Shown: piece after piece, positions 51,593-61,092 of the stretch | How the letters are laid out: every line of letters begins with the position of its first letter | How positions within the stretch are numbered: position 1 is the stretch's first letter | Source of the DNA: Planctomycetota bacterium | GTDB taxonomy: Bacteria; Planctomycetota; Phycisphaerae; UBA1845; UTPLA1 | Direction: 5' to 3' | Assembly (NCBI GenBank): GCA_016235815.1 | Contig: JACRIM010000058.1 | Span: 160,041-224,040 of the forward strand | DNA: 64,000 nucleotides | Notes under the pieces: generated by a model | Seen by the model: only the letters and a program-made list of their open reading frames with translations | The model's database searches: none | Told to the model about the DNA's origin: nothing | Position numbers and translations under genes: made by a program

Positions 51593-51712
51593 GCGACTTC
51601 CTTTCGACGAGTGATATTTCCGAACGAGCAATCAGGTAAGTCGGGGGAGATTATGCCACAAGCCGGTGTCGGCTGGAAGCACTTGTCATTTGTGTATAGG
51701 CTAATGCAAGTT

Positions 51713-51795
51713 GGGCGTGTGGCGGAATGGCAGACGCTGGGGATTTAAAATCCCTTGTCCGAAAGGACGTGCGGGTTCGAGTCCCGCCTCGCCCA
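51713..51795 (+). tRNA. tRNA-Leu (UAA anticodon), integration target
   Basis: 83 bases. Acceptor GGGCGTG pairs with CTCGCCC except one T-T at pair 6. The anticodon loop TTTAAAA carries TAA; a variable arm (TGTCCGAAAGGACGT) and the T arm GCGGG-TTCGAGT-CCCGC follow, discriminator A. The last 25 bases (51771-51795) are the attachment core and are repeated at 58872-58896. The gene is intact at this end, so leucine decoding is not harmed by the insertion. The integrase frame on the other strand ends within the anticodon arm. Confidence 0.95.
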
Positions 51796-53076
51796 ATCTC
51801 CATTGTGGACACCCTTTTCCCTGAATTGTCCACACGGGACATTCTCAATGTTTTCGGGGGTTTCACCATTCGCCCCCGGTTGACCGGTCCCGACCCGTCC
51901 ACCGCCTACCGCCGGTGACTGGTGTACATTTTGCTGCGCCCCGTCCTGCCCCGTCGCCCGGCGGAAGTCGCTATTGAGGTCCACGGACGTTGCATAGTGC
52001 TCGGCCGCAATCGTCGGGCTGTTGCCGATCCACTTGCATACGGTCGCTAGGTCATACTCCCGCATTAGCTCCGTCTCCCGGCTTGCCCGCAGATTGTGGA
52101 ACAGCTTCGGCCACGGAGTCAGCCCGGCCCGTTTGATGATCCGCTCGAATTGCTGGCGAAGATTCAGCGAGCCTTGTCGGTAGCGGGCGATTACATACTC
52201 CGACCCTTCCGCCGCCTCGGCAAACAGGGCGAGCAACGGACCGCGCAATTCAGGAAACATCGGGATCGTTCGTTGGGCGCAGGATTCAACGTGCGCCAGC
52301 TTCGGGCATGTAATGCGTATCGTGCCCCGCTCGAAGTCACAATCGCCCCAGCGGAGCGCAAACGTCTCGGATGGGGTTCGGATACCCCCGTATCGTGCCA
52401 ACGCAATTATGGCCTTCCATTCGAGGTCCGGCGTATCGGTGATGATCCGGTCAATCACTTCGCGGGGAATGAACAGCTTGCGCGTATCGTTGCGTTGGTG
52501 CCCGGCTTTGATGCCTGCGAATATGTTTTCGCTCGCCAGCTTCCAGCGAATCGCCAGTCGCCACATAGACCGCGCCGCCACGATCCGCCTTGCCACGGTT
52601 GCCGGTGAAAGGTCCGGCGAAGTCTTTTCGTCGGCCCCAGCCAGCCATGCCCGAAAGCCGTCGGCATCCGCCGGGGTGATACTCCGCATCGGCCGCGTCG
52701 CCGTGAAGTATGCTTCGAGGTTTCGGCGGGTGTGCCCGTAAAACGTCCGGGTTGCGGGCTTTGCCGTCATCGTCTCGAAGTACCGGGCAAGGAAATCGCC
52801 CAGTGTCGCATCCGCGATACCAACGCCCTCGGCCAGCCCGGCAGCTCGAAGGCGGGATAGCATGGCCTCGGGCAGTTCGCCCAGCCACTTCGAGGTTTCC
52901 GAATCGTGCGACCGTCGCCCCAGCTTGTCAGCGATGATCGACTCGATTCTCGCCTTCCACGTCTCGGCAACCTTGCGACTGACGCGCCCGAGCCGCACGG
53001 ACTTTCGATCCCCGTTGGGGTCGATGTTGAAATCAATTCGCCGCAAGCCGTCGGCGTATGTCACAATAGATGCCAT
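51745..53076 (-). CDS. Tyrosine recombinase (element integrase)
   Basis: 443 residues in the integrated state. Catalytic set: Arg in 'ARYGGIRTPSETFALRWGD', 'FHNLRASRETEL' (H-x-x-R), the 'WIGNSP' Trp and the nucleophile Tyr in 'AAEHYATSVD'. An N-terminal arm-binding region and SAM-like core-binding domain precede ('TLGDFLARYFETMTAKPATR'). The gene runs into attL: 'WARRDSNP' is encoded by the core, and the last eight residues (HVLSDKGF) come from antisense tRNA-Leu. In the excised circle the frame would instead continue into 58871-58687, adding a 61-residue tail. The upstream gap to the winged-HTH gene is about 200 bases, leaving room for its own promoter. Confidence 0.94.
   Translation of the reverse strand: MASIVTYADGLRRIDFNIDPNGDRKSVRLGRVSRKVAETWKARIESIIADKLGRRSHDSETSKWLGELPEAMLSRLRAAGLAEGVGIADATLGDFLARYFETMTAKPATRTFYGHTRRNLEAYFTATRPMRSITPADADGFRAWLAGADEKTSPDLSPATVARRIVAARSMWRLAIRWKLASENIFAGIKAGHQRNDTRKLFIPREVIDRIITDTPDLEWKAIIALARYGGIRTPSETFALRWGDCDFERGTIRITCPKLAHVESCAQRTIPMFPELRGPLLALFAEAAEGSEYVIARYRQGSLNLRQQFERIIKRAGLTPWPKLFHNLRASRETELMREYDLATVCKWIGNSPTIAAEHYATSVDLNSDFRRATGQDGAQQNVHQSPAVGGGRVGTGQPGANGETPENIENVPCGQFREKGVHNGDWARRDSNPHVLSDKGF
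51771..51795. other. attL core
   Basis: 25 bases at the 3' end of tRNA-Leu, including the T arm and the 3' acceptor strand. Identical to attR; the base before (T versus A) and after (A versus G) differ, which defines the ends exactly. Confidence 0.92.
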
Positions 53077-53275
53077 AGGTCAATCCCTTTCGTTCGCGTT
53101 CTACTCCCGACAATCCTAATCCCTGCGATGCCGCGCCAGCGATTACAAACCGGGCCGATGATTCCAGTCGGCACCGCTCGCAATATCGCCGTTGCAATTG
53201 TGGACCGCGTTCCGTTATCGCCGTTATTAACGGCAAGTTCCGTCGCGTCCGTTTGTGCCGTTTGCTTTCGGTTCG

Positions 53276-53818
53276 CTATTCATGTTCGCTTGCTCCGCTC
53301 GTTTCTGTGTCCGGGCAGCCCCGCTCTTGCGCGGGCTGCCTTATGGTCCCATTCTGGGATACCGGCAATCCATTGCCGTAGCTTTTGCAACGGATTGCCG
53401 ACTGTGATTGCAGCGGATTGCCGACTGTGGCCGCGTCCCGTACCAACGGCCGGACACGATAAACCGACACGCCAGCATTCAATCGGCCCCGCCGCACTAC
53501 GATCAAAAGGCCCGCCGCTTCGAGCTGCCGGACCGCGCTATAAACGGTCCGCACGCCTCGGCCGATCCGCTCGGCAATGCTATTGTGCGACGCCCGCGCC
53601 AGCCCGTCCGGCTTTGTGTCTCGAAACAAAACAAACCACACCGCCGCCGCCGTCGGGTCGATCATCCGCATAGACCGATCCACAAACGTATTCAGCACGT
53701 CGAACCGCGAACCGGCCCCCGGCTTCGGCTTGCGTGTCGCCCTTGCGGACGATCCACCGCCAGCCGTCGCCGGAATGCCGACACGCTTTCCGATGTAGTC
53801 GGAACCGTCCCCGATCAT
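53276..53818 (-). CDS. Winged helix-turn-helix protein of the element (replication or regulation)
   Basis: 180 residues; start overlaps the helicase stop by 4 bases. Residues ~40-125 form a winged helix ('MRMIDPTAAAVWFVLFRDTK', 'ASHNSIAERIGRGVRTVYSA', 'VRQLEAAGLLIVVRRGRLNA'), like the HTH domains of plasmid and phage replication initiators or regulators. The tail is disordered. Its place at the end of the replication operon suggests an initiator or a regulator of integrase, whose gene follows. Confidence 0.75.
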   Translation of the reverse strand: MIGDGSDYIGKRVGIPATAGGGSSARATRKPKPGAGSRFDVLNTFVDRSMRMIDPTAAAVWFVLFRDTKPDGLARASHNSIAERIGRGVRTVYSAVRQLEAAGLLIVVRRGRLNAGVSVYRVRPLVRDAATVGNPLQSQSAIRCKSYGNGLPVSQNGTIRQPAQERGCPDTETSGASEHE

Positions 53819-54795
53819 GCCGCGTCATCCTTCGCCTTGCGTGGTTTCCGAGTCACGGGCGCGGGTGCCCCAACGGTCGGCTCGAAATAGACGTAGGACA
53901 TCCCGCCGTACAGGATTGCTCCTTGCTGGACGCCCGCCCGGCCGTGCCGATTCTTGGCGAGCTGCAACAGTAGGCGCGGATCGTCGCCTTCGTGTGCGTC
54001 ATCGCGGACGATGCCGATCATCATTCCCGCAAGCGAAGCAAACCGGGCCGAGCCGCGCACCGCCGACAAGTCCGCAGACTTCGCCGCCAGTGCGAGCTTA
54101 TTCACTTCGCTAATCAGGATGCCCGCCGCGTTCACCGTGCGGATTGCATCGGCGATAGCGTGCAAGGCAGAGTCGAACCGATCCACGGCCGAGCCGTTCG
54201 GCATCGCGTCAAACGTCACAAGCCCCAGATGATCGACAAGTACCACGGTCGGGCGCGTTTCGCGGATCAGCTCGCCGATTGCCTCGGCGTCGTGCAAGTC
54301 ATCTACAAAGCGGAGTCGCCCGCCGATTTCCTCGGATAACGCCTCGGCCACGTTGCGTGCGTGAACCTGGCCCGCGTCCCGAAGTTGACCGCGAAGCATT
54401 GCACCGATGGGCGCGCAGAGCGTGATACAGTTCTGTGCGTTGGTGCGAACCGATTGACCGGCGACAAGCCGAGCTGCCCGTACCGCCGTCGATGTTTCGA
54501 GATTGCATATCAGAGCCGTCGCCTCGGGGTGATTGCGCAAAACGCCTAGCACGATCAGGTCCGCAATCGTGGACTTGCCCGCGCCGGGGTGTGCGATGAT
54601 TCCCGCATACTCGCCGCGCACAAGTCCGCCGGTTGTCGAGTCAAACAACGCGACGCCGGTTTGCAACGTTTCGATGATCGGCTCGCCTCTGTCGATACGC
54701 CCGATCAGCTCGCCTAGTGCCTCGGCCAGCGTGCGACCCTTCGGCGCGGGGTCCGGTTGCAGCATTGCATTCGCAAGGTCGGTAGTGCTACTCAT
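53815..54795 (-). CDS. DnaB-like RecA-fold helicase ATPase of the element
   Basis: 326 residues, coupled at both ends by 4-base overlaps. Walker A is 'AHPGAGKST' near residue 70, Walker B 'TVVLVDHLGLVTF' (compare DnaB 'hhhDYLQLM'), and 'ISEVNKLALAAKSADLSAVR' followed by 'GSARFASLAGMMIGIVRDD' matches the DnaB C-terminal L2/sensor region. It lacks the DnaB N-terminal domain. It probably unwinds the element's own origin together with the primase encoded immediately upstream. Confidence 0.87.
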   Translation of the reverse strand: MSSTTDLANAMLQPDPAPKGRTLAEALGELIGRIDRGEPIIETLQTGVALFDSTTGGLVRGEYAGIIAHPGAGKSTIADLIVLGVLRNHPEATALICNLETSTAVRAARLVAGQSVRTNAQNCITLCAPIGAMLRGQLRDAGQVHARNVAEALSEEIGGRLRFVDDLHDAEAIGELIRETRPTVVLVDHLGLVTFDAMPNGSAVDRFDSALHAIADAIRTVNAAGILISEVNKLALAAKSADLSAVRGSARFASLAGMMIGIVRDDAHEGDDPRLLLQLAKNRHGRAGVQQGAILYGGMSYVYFEPTVGAPAPVTRKPRKAKDDAA

Positions 54796-55910
54796 TTTCG
54801 CACCGCCTTTCGCCTTGCGCTTCGGATCGTTGCTTCGGCTTCACGTTGCGACACGCCGCAACGCACGGCCCCAGACACAATCATTCGCTCGGCCTCGGCC
54901 TCGGGGATGCCGGACCGGATCAAGTCGCCGACGCCGTAGTAAATCGCTTTGTTGCGTTCGCCTTCGCGCATCGTGCCGTCGATCAGCGATTGCGTGCGCG
55001 GGTCCAGTTTGCGTATCCGATCAGGATGAAACGCCGGACGCCGCTTCGCCGGTTGCCGACGCGATTCGATTCGCGCCAGCTCCCGACGCACGTCGGCCAT
55101 GAAGATTTCCCACGTCGCCGGGGTCCACGATGGAACCGTTTCCGGTTCGATGATCGGCGCGGGATGCGAAGCGAACGGGTCCACGGCCACGCCGCCGCCG
55201 TTGCGAGCTGCAACCGCTCCGAACGGCAACGCCAGCGAATAGCCCCGATCCGGCCGGGTCGTGCTTTTGGGGATCAGCTCTATCGCTCCGCTCTTACCCA
55301 TCGTCGCCAACACGCCGGATGCCGTCGTGAACGCATTCGGGAGCATTGCGTCGGAGTCCGAGTAATCGCGGGCAGCGACCATGTTCGCCGCCGCCGCAAG
55401 AAACGCCACGGCCGCGCACGCATCGGCCAGCGATATCGGCTTCGGCGGAAACGCCCAGATATGTCGCCCAGAGCCGGACCGGCTTCGCACGACAATCGAA
55501 CCGCGCCAACCGCCGAATGAATCTATCCGCTCCCATAGAGTCGCCGCCGCCCGGTCCACGTCGGCAAGTCCGCCCGCGCCGTGCGATGCGCCGTCAAGGT
55601 CGAACGCGAACCAACGGCAAAGCCCGTCCGCCGCCGGGCAATAGCTCCCGAGCTGCAGCGCATCGATGCGGACGCGCTTCGGTTGCTTGTCGAAAGGCGC
55701 GAACGTCACAACGGCCGGACCGCCGCGCAGGTGTGCGTCGATCAGGGCTTCACATTCGGACCCATCGGCGAAACGGATCGGGCCGAACGATCCCCACGGC
55801 ATCATGCACGGCGCAAAGTCCGAGCCGTCTAGAATCTTCGCCAGTATGCCCCGGCAGATTGCGCCGTGGGATGCTGGACTTGTTTGTTGGGGGATGTATG
55901 ATCGTGTCAT
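54792..55910 (-). CDS. Archaeo-eukaryotic-type primase of the element
   Basis: 372 residues. The two catalytic Asp of the AEP fold appear in 'RWFAFDLDGASH', the Gly/His motif in 'SRSGSGRHIWAFP', and the third motif region in 'AIELIPKSTTRPDRGYSLAL', closest by eye to primases of the TOTE group. The C-terminal part ('MREGERNKAIYYGVGDLI' ... 'GVSQREAEATIRSARRKA') is a helical PriCT-like module. It starts at TAATG, one base into the stop of the upstream gene, after a GAGGGGGG ribosome site, and ends in an ATGA overlap with the helicase. Together they form a primase-helicase pair for autonomous replication. Confidence 0.85.
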   Translation of the reverse strand: MTRSYIPQQTSPASHGAICRGILAKILDGSDFAPCMMPWGSFGPIRFADGSECEALIDAHLRGGPAVVTFAPFDKQPKRVRIDALQLGSYCPAADGLCRWFAFDLDGASHGAGGLADVDRAAATLWERIDSFGGWRGSIVVRSRSGSGRHIWAFPPKPISLADACAAVAFLAAAANMVAARDYSDSDAMLPNAFTTASGVLATMGKSGAIELIPKSTTRPDRGYSLALPFGAVAARNGGGVAVDPFASHPAPIIEPETVPSWTPATWEIFMADVRRELARIESRRQPAKRRPAFHPDRIRKLDPRTQSLIDGTMREGERNKAIYYGVGDLIRSGIPEAEAERMIVSGAVRCGVSQREAEATIRSARRKAVRK

Positions 55911-56350
55911 TAGTAGTTACCCCCCTCATTCGCAAGCCCGACGGTTGCCGCCGTTGGGCTTGTTTTTTCTGGCGACAACGCCGCGATGAATTGCCTCAGC
56001 CGGGCAATCTCGGCATCGGCTCGGGCATCGTCGATGATGCGCCACACAGTCAATAGGCCGCGATGCCGATGCGCCCTAGCAGACTTCGCGCTGCCGACAG
56101 CCTCAATCACTTTGCGGAGTGAAAGCAACTTTGAGACGGTCCCGCGCCACTTTCCACCATCCGCGTACTTGCGCCCAAGTTCTGCCGCATCGTCGGTTGT
56201 GCCCGTCCGATCCGGCCTCGCTCGCATCGCTTCGAGCATCGCTAATTGACACTGTGCAATCAGCTCGGCCTTGCCGTCGGCGGATGCTGCGAACAGCATC
56301 CCCCGATCTCGCCATGCTTCGCCGCGTTCAATGGATCGTTTCCGAGTCAT
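55910..56350 (-). CDS. Element protein of unknown function
   Basis: 146 residues from ATG 56350, which overlaps the Xis stop as ATGA; the frame also extends back to 56386. The sequence is helical and charged ('ERGEAWRDRGMLFAASADGK', 'DDAAELGRKYADGGKWRGTV', 'DDARADAEIARLRQFIAAL'). No family recognised. Its fixed position between Xis and primase in a coupled operon suggests a helper in replication or maintenance. Confidence 0.75.
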   Translation of the reverse strand: MTRKRSIERGEAWRDRGMLFAASADGKAELIAQCQLAMLEAMRARPDRTGTTDDAAELGRKYADGGKWRGTVSKLLSLRKVIEAVGSAKSARAHRHRGLLTVWRIIDDARADAEIARLRQFIAALSPEKTSPTAATVGLANEGGNY

Positions 56351-56601
56351 CGCGCACCGCCTTTCGATGCGCGAACCGATGGGCATCCCGCTTCCAGCCA
56401 GTTTTGCAGTTCCCTACGTCGCCAACGCACCAACGATCCGAGCCGCGTAGGCGTCGGCATCCGGCCGCCGTCGGCAAGCCGGCGAACGTGCCGACAACTG
56501 CATTGCAGCATCGACGCCACGGCTCGCACGTCGAGTAACTCAGCCGGTACTCGCTCCGGCCCGGCGAATCGCTCGCCGGTTGCGTTTGTGTTAGTCGCCA
56601 T
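56347..56601 (-). CDS. Xis/AlpA-type helix-turn-helix protein
   Basis: 84 residues with GGAG 8 bases before the ATG. Excisionase-family winged helix: 'LLDVRAVASMLQCSCRHVRR', 'ADGGRMPTPTRLGSLVRWRR', 'RELQNWLEAGCPS'. First gene of the coupled operon. Palindromes in the 167 bases upstream are candidate control sites. AlpA/Xis proteins of satellites both promote excision and activate transcription; which applies here is open. Confidence 0.87.
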   Translation of the reverse strand: MATNTNATGERFAGPERVPAELLDVRAVASMLQCSCRHVRRLADGGRMPTPTRLGSLVRWRRRELQNWLEAGCPSVRASKGGAR

Positions 56602-56667
56602 TTTTCTTACTCCGGTATGGCAGACATGCCGTGCCCTTCACAATGAAGGGCGTACAGGAGTAGTCAG

Positions 56668-56683
56668 GTGGTCATATGACCAC
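56668..56683. promoter_or_regulatory. 16-bp perfect palindrome, candidate operator
   Basis: GTGGTCATATGACCAC lies 66 bases upstream of the Xis start. A shorter relative, GGTCATGACC, is at 56727-56736. The shared GGTCAT half-sites suggest binding of one dimeric regulator at both places in the only intergenic gap between the two gene blocks of the element. Confidence 0.6.
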
Positions 56684-56726
56684 TTTGAGAATTGATGGTT
56701 TTGCTAGGGAATTGCGCTGATTAGCC

Positions 56727-56736
56727 GGTCATGACC
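56727..56736. promoter_or_regulatory. Second GGTCAT palindrome, candidate operator
   Basis: GGTCATGACC, the same half-site as at 56668 with two fewer central bases; a TTGACC on the minus strand (around 56752) could be a -35 box next to it. Confidence 0.45.
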
Positions 56737-56768
56737 ACTTGCCGAAAGCGGTCAAACACCAAACAATA

Positions 56769-58220
56769 TCAGTCCCGTTGGCTACGGCCGTACGGCATCC
56801 GTTTTTCGGATTCCATTTCGGCTTGATGTTCATGCAAGAGTTGCCTGTATTCAGCGTCGGATTTTTCTTCGGCTGCGATGTCCAAGCCCATTCGCTCCCC
56901 GCGTCCTGTTCCCGGTTTGTTGCCATTGATACCCAGCTTCGCTGCGATGGCCTTCCACGGACGGGAGCTAGATACCATCGCGCCGGGACACTTAAAGTGC
57001 CTCGCAAGGGTGTTTCTGCCTATGAGTCGCCGGGCTTTCTTAATTCCGTCCTTAGCATTACTTTTTATGGCTTGTTCGGCGTTGGCCACTTGTCGTTTGT
57101 TTTCGATCAAGTATTGCGATATTTCTGCGTCTAGGTTTGCTTGGGTCCACCGTCGGTTTCGCGGTTTGTCGGCGTTGGTCAATTTCGCACCAACCTTCGA
57201 CGGAGTCTCAATCACGCCGTATGGTTTCTCGCCCGGAATGATCGTCGCAGTGTGCGTGTTTGCTTGTCGAATCGATGGAAGTCGGTCGAGATATCGCAGT
57301 TCGCGCAACTTGTCGAAAAGGATTCTAAATTGGCCATGCTTTTCGCTGCCAGCATTGTGCCCGAGCTTTTCAATCTCCCAGAGGGACGCAAGGGCTTTGT
57401 ACGCATCGACGATAAGGGGAATGACAATCTCTGCCTTTCCTACCAATTCAGCGTGCGCCATTGCGAGCTGTTTTTTCTGTTCCAATTCGTCCCACGTCGG
57501 TATCCCCGGCTCGCTACCCGGTCGTTTTGTGGACGCCTGATAGGCGCAGTCGAGTGCGTCATATAACGCCGCAATCGGCCCCGTCGGTATATCGCTCGTT
57601 ACTATCGTCGCGTCGTGCGTATTCACTTGTCCGCCCAACTTCAGCGTGATTGACTTTTGCCGCACAGCGAATTGCATTCTTACGTCGAGGACGGTGAGCC
57701 GTGCGATTTCTTCGGCAGACAAACCAAGTTCCTGCAACACGGGACGCACGGCCGACCAATTGCAACCGTCCCAGCCGGGCAAGTGCTTTTGCACCGCTTG
57801 TACCGTCTCGGGATCGGCATTGCCGCGAAACGGGTTGCCAAGTGCAAACGGTCGCGGTTGCCCGTCGTCATCGACCTTGTTCGGCGCAACGAATGTCCGG
57901 TTTATTCGGTACAGCCACGTCTTAAACGCCACGTCTTCCACGACGCGCAAGGATGCTTTGAGTTCGCCGATTGCAACTCGAAACGCATCGTCGGAAATCC
58001 CCACCGCGCTCGCCAGCTTCCGAAGTTCCTCATATGTCAACTTGGGGTCGAGCTGTTTCAATCTCGCTTTGAGGTTGTCAGCCTTGTTCGGGAGATTCGC
58101 CCAAAGCAATTCCGGCAGCTTGGAACGGTATTCCGCGTCCGTGTCTAGGCGTTGCAGAATGCCGATGATCGACTCTTGTGCGTGCTGTTCGCTGTCCTTC
58201 TGTGCGACGGGTTCAGACAT
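56769..58220 (-). CDS. Large element protein of unknown function
   Basis: 483 residues from ATG 58220, which has AAGGGA about 8 bases upstream; the frame runs back to 58436 without support. Mostly helical. The N-terminal part has 'SIIGILQRLDTDAEYRSKLP' and 'LTYEELRKLASAVGISDDAF', the middle 'ALYDALDCAYQASTKRPGSE', and the C-terminal part has an HTH-like 'GRNTLARHFKCPGAMVSSS' preceded by a basic helix. I recognise no family. It is first in the element's gene order behind the conserved right-end region, so it may be an early regulator or an anti-phage or helper-interaction protein; both are speculation. Confidence 0.7.
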   Translation of the reverse strand: MSEPVAQKDSEQHAQESIIGILQRLDTDAEYRSKLPELLWANLPNKADNLKARLKQLDPKLTYEELRKLASAVGISDDAFRVAIGELKASLRVVEDVAFKTWLYRINRTFVAPNKVDDDGQPRPFALGNPFRGNADPETVQAVQKHLPGWDGCNWSAVRPVLQELGLSAEEIARLTVLDVRMQFAVRQKSITLKLGGQVNTHDATIVTSDIPTGPIAALYDALDCAYQASTKRPGSEPGIPTWDELEQKKQLAMAHAELVGKAEIVIPLIVDAYKALASLWEIEKLGHNAGSEKHGQFRILFDKLRELRYLDRLPSIRQANTHTATIIPGEKPYGVIETPSKVGAKLTNADKPRNRRWTQANLDAEISQYLIENKRQVANAEQAIKSNAKDGIKKARRLIGRNTLARHFKCPGAMVSSSRPWKAIAAKLGINGNKPGTGRGERMGLDIAAEEKSDAEYRQLLHEHQAEMESEKRMPYGRSQRD

Positions 58221-58403
58221 GATGCAATCCCTTGCACGGGCCGGTCCCGGCGAGCTGTTCGGGATTGCGAAACAGCTCGGCCGGGTCCGCTTGCGGATGT
58301 ACGGTCCGCGTCCCGTTATCGGGGATTGTAACTCCCGAATCGGTCTCGGCGACGCATCGCCCCTTGCCTGTGAATTGTCTGTCAGCCGGGGGGTGCCAAT
58401 TCT

Positions 58404-58661
58404 CAGCCGCGATAGCGGAGCGGCCGCACGGTCCACGGGCCGGGGGTTGCAGCTTTTCCGCCCCCCTATGCCAGCGTTGGACTAAATAGCCCAAAGGCCC
58501 AGCCATAACCTACGAAAATGTGCGTGCACGGTCGGCCGCGTTGGACTACCGACGATCCGCAGAGATTCGATAGCCCCTGCCCCCGGCCGGGAAATAAAGT
58601 GTGTCTATCTCGCCGATTGTTCCCAATGGGGTCGTTTTCGTTTCATGCCGGGAAGGACCCG
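58404..58661. repeat. Conserved right-end non-coding segment, copy 1
   Basis: About 255 bases that recur with many scattered differences at 59289-59542. It contains two direct repeats GCGTTGGACTA (58474-58484 and 58538-58548, 64 bases apart) and 'CCCGGCCGGGAAATAAAGTGTGT'-type shared blocks. It sits upstream of the first element gene, so an origin, integrase arm sites or the early promoter are the likely contents. Confidence 0.75.
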
Positions 58662-58686
58662 CAACCGGGGTCTGCCCGTTGCTCCG

Positions 58687-58896
58687 TTATTCCCCCGGCG
58701 TGCGGGCCTTTGCATCCGCAAGCAATCGCCGCACGGCCTCGGCCTTATCGGTGTCAGACAACGGCAATCGCATGATCCCGGCGACAGCCTCGGCGAAGGA
58801 ATCGGCCCCGGATGATGCGCCTTTTGCTGCGCCTATATCCTGAATCGGGCCTTTTTGTTGGGGTATTGGTAGCGGGTTCGAGTCCCGCCTCGCCCA
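58687..58896 (-). other. Severed 3' segment of the integrase reading frame
   Basis: From the att core ('WARRDSNP') the minus-strand frame continues 'LPIPQQKGPIQDIGAAKGAS' and onward to a TAA at 58687, 61 residues after the core. In the circle this follows the integrase in frame. A copy in the decayed neighbour element (60752-60947) keeps a 33-residue block (from SGADSF to RRLLA) with one amino-acid change, although about 12 of 13 base changes are silent. It is therefore coding sequence under selection. In the integrated state it is cut off from the integrase gene; an open frame continues outward to 59022 but has no family support. Confidence 0.8.
58872..58896. other. attR core
   Basis: Exact copy of the tRNA-Leu 3' 25 bases, 7,101 bases from attL. 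Outside a tRNA context here, since the 5' tRNA part is absent. Confidence 0.92.
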
Positions 58897-59288
58897 GTGG
58901 AAGCGTGGAACCGCAGATTTGTCGGATTGAGCAGATTGGGTTGGGGGGTGAATGCTTGGCTCGGTGGAATTGCGGCAGATTGTCTGAAGAGCGCGATGGG
59001 ATTGGATTGGGGGGCGTCCCATGCGAAAAGGACCTGGGAAAAGGTGGGATTACCTGGGACGAAGTGGGACGGGGTGCCATGGAGAGGGTCTGAGGGGTCA
59101 AGGGGCCGAGGGGCCGAGTGAAGGAAGGTGTTGCTTCGCAACGGTAAGCACATGCATGGGCGCGGAACATCCGGGGCCTCCTTTCGCTGGCGTGGGCGGC
59201 TTGCCTAACTTTTGCCTAACATAGTATAGTCTGCGAAATGGCGGGGCAAGGGAAACGCCGAAACATTCGAAACGCCCAAACAGTTATT
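58897..59288. other. Gene-free junction with short repeats
   Basis: No convincing gene. It holds GGGGTCAAGGGGCCGAGG-type repeats (59091-59120), a TTGCCTAAC direct repeat near 59198-59220 ahead of TAGTATAGT, and three degenerate octamer units (59256-59280) related to those in mutL and the nif3-like gene. Confidence 0.55.
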
Positions 59289-59542
59289 CAGCCGCAAGCG
59301 CGGCCTTGCCGCACGGTCCCTTTTGCGAGCGTTGCAGTTTTTCGCCCCCCCGATGCCAGCGTTGGACTAAGTAGCCCAAAGGCCCAACCATAACTCCCGA
59401 AAATGTGCGCGCACGGTCGGCCGCGTTGGACTTCGGCGGATTCGCAGGGGGTCGATAGCCCCTCCCCCCGGCCGGGAAATAAAGTGTGTGCCCCCGACTG
59501 TTCCCATAGGTGTCCGCGTCGTTTCGAGCCGGGAAGGACCCA
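59289..59542. repeat. Conserved right-end non-coding segment, copy 2
   Basis: Homologue of 58404-58661, with the direct repeats at 59359-59369 and 59423-59432. The intact element has about 25 bases between this block and the integrase tail; here there are about 1.2 kb with two genes. Confidence 0.75.
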
Positions 59543-59783
59543 CAAAAATCACCCCCCCAAGAAAATCCACGGGCGCGCACGGTGAGGGCCGGGCCGGTCT
59601 TTTGAGTTCCAACGAAACATTTTGCCCCCCCATGCCACGCCTGATTCGAGAAACCGAGCTGCCACATATGGTATGATTGTCATTTACGGTCCGCCGTCGG
59701 CAAGGCCGGACCGTTACGGGCAATCACACTAAACAAGGGCTTAGACCGTCCGAGCTGCCGAGTCGGATGGGAAAGGGCATTCC

Positions 59784-60302
59784 ATGAATCAGCGAAGTAG
59801 TTTGATCGTATTCTGTTTCGCCTCGGCGTTGGTGGGCGGGATCGTCGCCACGCAATCAGCGGGCCGGGATCGTGCGACGGCGCAGGTCGCCAACGTTGCG
59901 GCGGGAGTCGAGACTGTAGCACTCCCATCGCGCTGCAATCAATGTGCGTGGGACGGAAAGCGAATTGAGTATATTGCCACCACGGAGCGATTGCGGATTC
60001 AGGTTTTTCCGGTCGGAACGTCGGGCGTGGTACACAGTATTATTCGTTCGCCAAGTCCATACACTTGTATTCTTGATGTAATGGGCGAAGGCGACGCGGC
60101 CGATCCCAATGCGATTACATACGGACGTCCGGACGAATTCTGGAATACATATGTGAACCAAGAGAATGACATTCGGTTCACTTCGGGGCTTTGGATCGAG
60201 ACAAGAAACGTCAATGAATGTGGGCAGCCGTCGAACGCAACCAATGCTTTTGTGGTTCTCTATCGGCTAGACACTCCGCTTAGCACCGCCCCCGAGAAAT
60301 AG
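59784..60302 (+). CDS. Secreted protein of unknown function (cargo of remnant element)
   Basis: 172 residues; AAAGGG about 9 bases before the ATG. The signal peptide ends around 'VATQSAGRDRATAQ'. The mature part is beta-rich with four Cys (CNQC, a central Cys in 'YTCILDVMGEGDAADPN', and 'NVNECGQPSN'), so disulphides are likely. No family recognised. It lies in the slot between the right-end block and the integrase tail, oriented opposite to the element's core genes. Confidence 0.72.
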   Translation: MNQRSSLIVFCFASALVGGIVATQSAGRDRATAQVANVAAGVETVALPSRCNQCAWDGKRIEYIATTERLRIQVFPVGTSGVVHSIIRSPSPYTCILDVMGEGDAADPNAITYGRPDEFWNTYVNQENDIRFTSGLWIETRNVNECGQPSNATNAFVVLYRLDTPLSTAPEK

Positions 60303-60437
60303 CGTTTTCCTTGCAACAGTGAAGCCAAGTGAAGGTGGGCACCGTGATTTTCAAGGGCGCAATATGCTTATCCGTCTTGGGCCAATTGAAACTCTGAAAC
60401 TAAGTATATTAACGTGTCAATGAAACGGAGATTCGCA

Positions 60438-60737
60438 ATGAATAGACAAACCGCATTGGTGGCCGGGGTTGTCGTAGCAAGTTTTTGTGCCTTTCTATTT
60501 GGGCAATCCCGCCAAGAGTCGCCTGAGAGTTCAATGCTCCCGGCCGGTAGATTTCAGCTATTTGAGGGTAAATTTAGCGCAATAGTGGTAGCGAAGGATG
60601 TAAAACCCGGTAACGTTCAAGAAACTGGCCTATTTCGCATCGATACAATTACTGGTCGCACATGCAGATTGAATGTATTCGCGAATACGGAAGATCACAA
60701 ATACAGTGAACAGTGGATTGAGATTAGTGAGAAGTGA
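60438..60737 (+). CDS. Small membrane-anchored or secreted protein (cargo of remnant element)
   Basis: 99 residues from ATG 60438, preceded by CGGAG; the frame also starts at 60414. N-terminal hydrophobic segment 'TALVAGVVVASFCAFLFG', then a short domain ('RFQLFEGKFSAIVVAKDVKP', 'LFRIDTITGRTCRLNVF'). The 'LF-x-ID-x-x-TG' turn recalls small planctomycete membrane proteins such as the one at 27532-28068. Function unknown. Same orientation as the preceding gene, 135 bases on. Confidence 0.68.
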   Translation: MNRQTALVAGVVVASFCAFLFGQSRQESPESSMLPAGRFQLFEGKFSAIVVAKDVKPGNVQETGLFRIDTITGRTCRLNVFANTEDHKYSEQWIEISEK

Positions 60738-60751
60738 ATTGCAAGTTTCTA

Positions 60752-60947
60752 TTAGGTGTCGATCCGACTTACATAACTGGCTCGTTGCCCGGCCAGCAAC
60801 CGCCGCACGGCCTCGGCCTTGTCGGCATCGCTAAGCGGCAATCGCATGATCCCGGCGACGGCTTCGGCGAAGGAATCGGCCCCGGATGCTGCGCTTTTTG
60901 CTGCGACTGTGCCCTGAGTGGGCGTGGTCTGTTGGGGATTTTGTTGA
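60752..60947 (-). pseudogene. Orphan integrase C-terminal tail (remnant)
   Basis: Minus-strand frame matching the tail beyond attR: the block from SGADSF through 'AEAVAGIMRLPLSD' to 'KAEAVRRLLA' is nearly identical in protein but differs at many silent positions. It ends 'GQRASYVSRIDT' at TAA 60752-60754. No integrase body is joined to it. Confidence 0.75.
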
Positions 60948-61092
60948 CCGGTTAAGTTCCACGTCGTCCATTTCAGTTCTTTTGAAAATCGGAGTTACGC
61001 TGCTGTTCAGGCGTAGCGACGCCGGGTTGTATTGCCGGCTTGCCTCGTGCATTCACGTGACTATCATCCAGCCCTGAATCACGAGGAGTACT

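Follow-up and report, generated by a model that had tools for sequence, protein, structure and literature searches.

A planctomycete integrase gene that spans its attachment site, with a conserved C-terminal tail predicted to be encoded only in the circular form

The window (the whole 64,000-nucleotide stretch of Planctomycetota DNA that was analysed) contains a 7,101-bp integrative element, which sits in a tRNA-Leu(taa) gene between exact core repeats and carries an integrase gene running into one of them in such a way that, as read from the sequence, integration cuts a conserved C-terminal tail off the enzyme and excision puts it back. The integrase probably behaves differently in the circular and the integrated state; the function of the tail and the direction of the bias are what we infer below. 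The element and its ends comprise the following features.

51712-51796, forward strand: tRNA-Leu(taa), the integration target, restored by the element (ARAGORN)
51745-53076, reverse strand: tyrosine integrase, integrated form, 443 aa (PF00589, E 1.3e-9; PHROG integrase, E 1.1e-25)
51771-51795, reverse strand: att core, integrase-proximal copy, WARRDSNP in the integrase frame (exact 25-bp repeat)
53276-53818, reverse strand: replication-initiation O-like protein (PHROG, E 1.9e-5)
53815-54795, reverse strand: DnaB-like helicase (Pfam and PHROG)
54792-55910, reverse strand: archaeo-eukaryotic-type primase (Pfam AEP-TOTE, E 2.7e-7)
56347-56601, reverse strand: small HTH_17 protein, excisionase-like (Pfam PF12728; PHROG excisionase/regulator, E 1e-8)
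58687-58871, reverse strand: C-terminal tail of 61 residues, circle-only, with a predicted helical hairpin at its end (SFAEAVAGIMRLPLSDTDKAEAVRRLLA)
58872-58896, reverse strand: att core, distal copy (exact 25-bp repeat)

With three replication genes (O-like initiator, DnaB-like helicase and AEP-type primase) and a gene for an excisionase-like HTH protein, the element therefore looks like a small integrating replicon, one that may persist for long periods as a circle. Inside the O-like replication gene (53385-53429), a 22-bp sequence (TTGCARCGGATTGCCGACTGTG) occurs twice in direct orientation, 23 bp apart; the arrangement is iteron-like and marks a possible origin. The relatives of the element are Planctomycetota, the closest mostly Phycisphaerae.

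In the integrated state, the last eight residues of the integrase come from the antisense tRNA (GDWARRDSNP followed by HVLSDKGF and a stop). When the cores are joined, the frame passes into 58871-58687 and reads WARRDSNP followed by LPIPQQ, ending in TPGE and a stop, which gives a protein of 496 aa with 61 residues past the core; the claim of the initial annotation that the frame crosses the core in phase on both sides, with forms of 443 and 496 aa and a 61-residue tail, was confirmed. The PF00589 Phage_integrase domain scored above its cut-off, and the catalytic Arg, HxxR box and Tyr (GGIRTPSE, HNLRASR and HYATS, residues 230-364 of 443; the alignments have Q in place of H in a few relatives) all precede the att core, the integrated form retaining a complete catalytic domain and losing the tail alone. 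The tail is then found in a free-standing ORF of 111 aa. The circle of the window element is modelled, its attP junction being absent from its own assembly (one match, at attR with 1 mismatch) and from IMG/VR, and the sequenced circular junctions come from relatives. No close relative of the window integrase was found in the plasmid and phage collections.

The predicted structure of a relative with a contiguous gene (L184) matched lambda Int, Tn1549 Int and XerA in Foldseek, the best match being lambda integrase (1z1b, E 9.7e-11), with which it shares an N-terminal beta-sheet domain before the core-binding and catalytic domains. The lambda attP lies outside int. In the AlphaFold model of the L184 protein, the N-terminal and catalytic domains are confident, the linker (residues 373-458) is disordered with pLDDT below 50, and the C-terminus forms a two-helix hairpin (462-473 and 476-490, pLDDT 86-95); a similar hairpin was predicted for the window-type tail (29-41 and 47-64, pLDDT 86-93).

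Sequence repeats common to the two sides of the core were found within the linkers. The best repeat had a score of 16-28, above all 200 shuffles, in 22 of the 23 elements tested, and for short integrases it lies mostly about 60-65 nt after and 143-156 nt before the core start. The repeat in the window is a 12-mer whose score of 12 equals the maximum of 200 shuffles and whose position matches that of the strong repeats in relatives.

51929-51940, reverse strand: candidate P-arm site GGCGCAGCAAAA, 145 nt ahead of the core, within the coding sequence of the integrase C-terminal linker
58822-58833, reverse strand: candidate P'-arm site GGCGCAGCAAAA, within the coding sequence of the tail linker, 63 nt from the start of the core

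The repeats are candidate arm-type sites flanking the core inside the ORF, and therefore the whole attP would lie inside the integrase gene. On the simplest reading, the embedded DNA sites constrain the linker sequence, and the hairpin does the work.

Integrase, core and tail form one ORF in six distinct IMG/VR elements (L171/L204, L174/L175, L180, L182, L183 and L184/L185), as the initial annotation had predicted for the attP junction, and ARAGORN found no tRNA gene at the core in any of the six. The predicted circular gene thus exists in relatives: four of these contigs, those of L175, L180, L182 and L183, carry the same sequence at both termini (exact repeats of 44, 119, 80 and 123 bp), and in L183 the integrase-core-tail ORF itself spans the contig ends. 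Two elements of one lineage illustrate both states: L184 and L186 share 82% identity across 1,300 nt of their integrase genes and diverge at the core. There L186, inserted in tRNA-Ser(gct), runs out in antisense tRNA without a tail, whereas L184 lacks a tRNA and continues to the end of the tail. No in-frame contiguous form was seen among the 80 genome loci; long frames in L245, L248, L253 and L237 were rejected as contiguous forms, being chance frames that run through host DNA into the tail. On one genome contig (L249:1694-2866), a third integrase type and a type-2 tail (see below) share one ORF through a long tRNA-like core, the DNA being a circle, a tandem or an unsplit form.

We consider it probable that a lambda-type integrase, with its whole attP in its gene, carries a tail that favours integration and whose loss stabilises the integrated state. 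The enzyme would be an arm- and core-binding tyrosine recombinase, its gene holding an arm repeat, the core, a second arm repeat and the terminal domain. In the excised circle, the ribosome would read through attP and produce the long integrase, whose flexible linker ends in the two-helix hairpin. As the sequences show, the integrase gene is cut at the core when the element recombines with the tRNA gene: the enzyme then stops shortly after entering antisense tRNA, and the tail stays behind at the far end, deprived of its start codon. Integration thus edits the enzyme performing it, and excision restores that enzyme. The tail would most likely be a protein-protein contact making the complex on the circular attP efficient at integration; it would matter only in the circle, when integration is useful, and therefore a positive role in integration seems most likely. 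Loss of the tail would lower activity and leave the integrated state stable, as reported for Int and IntX of the Myxococcus phage Mx8, IntX having been described as a less active form. This precedent makes it plausible that the switch biases the enzyme between the two reactions. Where elements lie in tandem, the neighbouring copy would supply the distal integrase with a tail again, and arrays might be removed more readily as a result.

Phages Mx8 and Mx9 carry attP inside the coding sequence of int, and a recombinant gene with a new 3' end arises on integration; the recombinant form of Mx8 is not inactive, its specificity being altered (PMC6070905). The layout of Mx8 is that of the window integrase, with the att core inside the int ORF and the C-terminus replaced on integration, and the window integrase would work like Mx8 Int; membership in the Mx8 Int family is not supported by sequence, the two having no detectable similarity (BLASTP E 0.15 at best). 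In Mx8 int (L227:5208-6809), the protein reads the antisense-tRNA-like STGLEPV and then about 110 more residues. The Mx8 Int end has no evident hairpin motif of the planctomycete tail types, and the pattern described here, unlike that of Mx8, is conserved across a phylum and occurs in small plasmid-like elements. Integration of the SSV type splits the catalytic enzyme, unlike that of the window element, whose integrase has all catalytic residues before the core and loses the tail only. The SSV-type archaeal integrases likewise extend across attP and have their gene cut by integration, and island finders already allow for integrases crossing attP, citing Mx8 and SSV (PMC4383910). In mycobacteriophage integration-dependent immunity, attP lies in the repressor gene and an ssrA-like tag is lost on integration (PMC9934374). 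There too the 3' end of a gene is removed, but the gene cut here is the integrase, the part lost is a conserved hairpin, and the ends are not ssrA-like.

The tail could instead be a negative element in the circle, acting by autoinhibition or instability, such that integration would free a more active or more stable short integrase for excision; the integrated Mx8 form, described as less active, speaks against this. The gene-cutting logic would be the same as in the repressor systems that lose an ssrA-like tag (PMC9934374), and the complete catalytic domain of the integrated form agrees with it; however, the tail ends vary (GE, AE, GKP, VVG, RED) without a conserved ssrA-like end, the conserved part is the internal hairpin, and the integrated form of Mx8 keeps activity with altered specificity (PMC6070905). 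A negative tail is on balance unlikely, and an ssrA-like tag was rejected as its identity given the varying ends.

The fusion of the tail with the integrase was examined in split elements with both ends in hand by locating the core repeat and comparing phases. In relatives, the strong tail matches that were examined lie at the far end of an element, immediately past the 3' end of an antisense tRNA. Tail and integrase are in phase, with an open frame from core to tail, in 37 of 37 Planctomycetota split elements, where chance agreement is 1/3 per element and the relatedness of the elements makes the count overstate independence. The prediction of an in-frame junction thus held here as well. The 37 comprise sets of 15, 14 (L094, L096, L116, L118, L119, L130, L135, L142, L143, L144, L149, L150, L154 and L155) and 8 (L228, L229, L230, L231, L233, L242, L243 and L252). 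In L233 the automatic pick was a longer repeat further upstream that contains an indel, and visual inspection gave the phase (VGQAGLE on both sides); in L144 the in-phase core scored 15 and a different tRNA-like repeat 17; L266, a 213-aa integrase fragment, is in phase and was left out of the count. The test spans many targets and two integrase subfamilies that differ clearly (about 440 and 600 aa). In almost every split element ARAGORN called a complete antisense tRNA where the integrase ends, the 11 target isotypes being Leu, Ile, Thr, Gly, Val, Met, Ala, Tyr, Lys, Arg and Glu. One element of the same kind is integrated in a tmRNA gene (L243:14578-14956, ARAGORN). All three T-loop reading frames are used (RDSN, GLEP and RT), and therefore the tRNA sequence does not fix the phase.

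These data bear on the possibility that the tail works as a small protein in its own right, such as a directionality factor, with its own translation and an incidental fusion to the integrase. The free-standing ORF of the integrated state (111 aa in the window) and the two relatives (L127 and L157) in which the tail lies outside the integrase frame would fit such a protein, but 37 of 37 in-phase fusions with no stop from core to tail, in all three T-loop frames, would not; moreover, 14 of 29 tails have no ATG, GTG or TTG between core and tail, and the host-side open frames before the tail vary widely in length. We regard a separate protein as very improbable.

The frame is kept across the relatives as the initial annotation implied, and is broken in these two (L127:1340-1720 and L157:3480-3830), in which integrase, core and tail are contiguous with the tail in the +1 frame. 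In both, the core runs through the antisense anticodon loop, where a TGA stops the integrase, and a TACCCCC stretch lies just before it; a +1 slip at this stretch is speculation. ARAGORN calls a tRNA-Gln in the L127 region, which we consider doubtful. The two elements show that the fusion can be lost or differently organised.

The window contains a second copy of the tail, 60792-60970 being 78% identical to 58718-58896 without gaps. Within a conserved block of 32 residues (SGADSFAEAVAGIMRLPLSD(T/A)DKAEAVRRLLA), the copies differ at 13 bases, of which 3, 1 and 9 are at first, second and third codon positions, and at a single amino acid (pS 0.35, pN 0.06). The initial annotation had called the tail coding by this comparison, which holds, as does the single amino-acid change; the block, given there as 33 residues, was counted as 32. 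Among 48 distinct tails of the same type (type 1) from relatives, the 29 closest pairs gave pS 0.342 and pN 0.059; their differences number 76, 28 and 213 at first, second and third codon positions, and when read in the two shifted frames these pairs gave pN > pS. Such a pattern indicates that the tail is under purifying selection at the protein level. It is hardly credible that conservation of the tail reflects demands on the DNA (integrase arm sites, attP packing) and not on the protein. In its favour, arm-site-like repeats lie in the tail linker and account for the GAAKSAA / NACTNACT-like conservation there; against it, the hairpin block beyond them changes mostly at third codon positions and the shifted frames have pN > pS. 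A chance open frame is ruled out by the phase agreement in all 37 elements and the codon-position pattern.

Related genomes bear out the view of the tail as a conserved segment: the type-1 tail was detected in 34 of 397 genomes of the class and a second tail type in 111 of 392 genomes of the phylum. The tail matched no Pfam family and no PHROG domain in the respective searches. The homology of the two types is not established (hhalign probability 12%), and their common hairpin design could be convergent. In L037, L042, L043 and L094, a type-2 tail lies shortly after a type-1 tail and in a different frame, as though tails had been stacked or swapped. It is conceivable, and we put it forward tentatively, that at least three Planctomycetota integrase subfamilies have circle-only hairpin tails without a Pfam match, acting as a topology sensor that licenses integration and is then removed, in a one-way, self-limiting strategy general to the phages and plasmid-like elements of the phylum.

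The principle is already known from Mx8; its phylum-wide use, the conserved tail types, the tails common to different integrases and the sequenced circles appear new, and no earlier report of such integrases in planctomycetes was found among open-licence papers. Within the literature searched, an enzyme rewriting the end of its own gene is described in detail only for Mx8-like phages, and the same logic is now seen in dozens of elements of one phylum, at 11 kinds of tRNA gene and a tmRNA gene, with a selected domain predicted to be circle-only. This raises the testable question of whether the DNA state sets the direction of recombination via the integrase tail. For annotation, integrases from integrated genomes of this group carry wrong C-termini made of antisense tRNA, and the system is a possible source of one-way integration tools.

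The window itself bears the trace of such a tandem history: beyond the distal core, the region 58897-60970 is what remains of the right end of an older, related element that has lost its integrase. Its two recognisable parts are as follows.

59288-59545, no strand assigned: relic copy of 58403-58664, a non-coding stretch beside the tail (83% and 79% repeats)
60792-60970, reverse strand: relic right end of the older related element, second tail copy and decayed core (78% identity; codon analysis)

The decayed core beside the second copy (about 60948-60970) retains the same register. Between the two halves of the relic right end lie two small ORFs with signal-like N-termini, 59784-60302 (without a Pfam match) and 60414-60737, which are apparently cargo of, or an insertion in, the older element.
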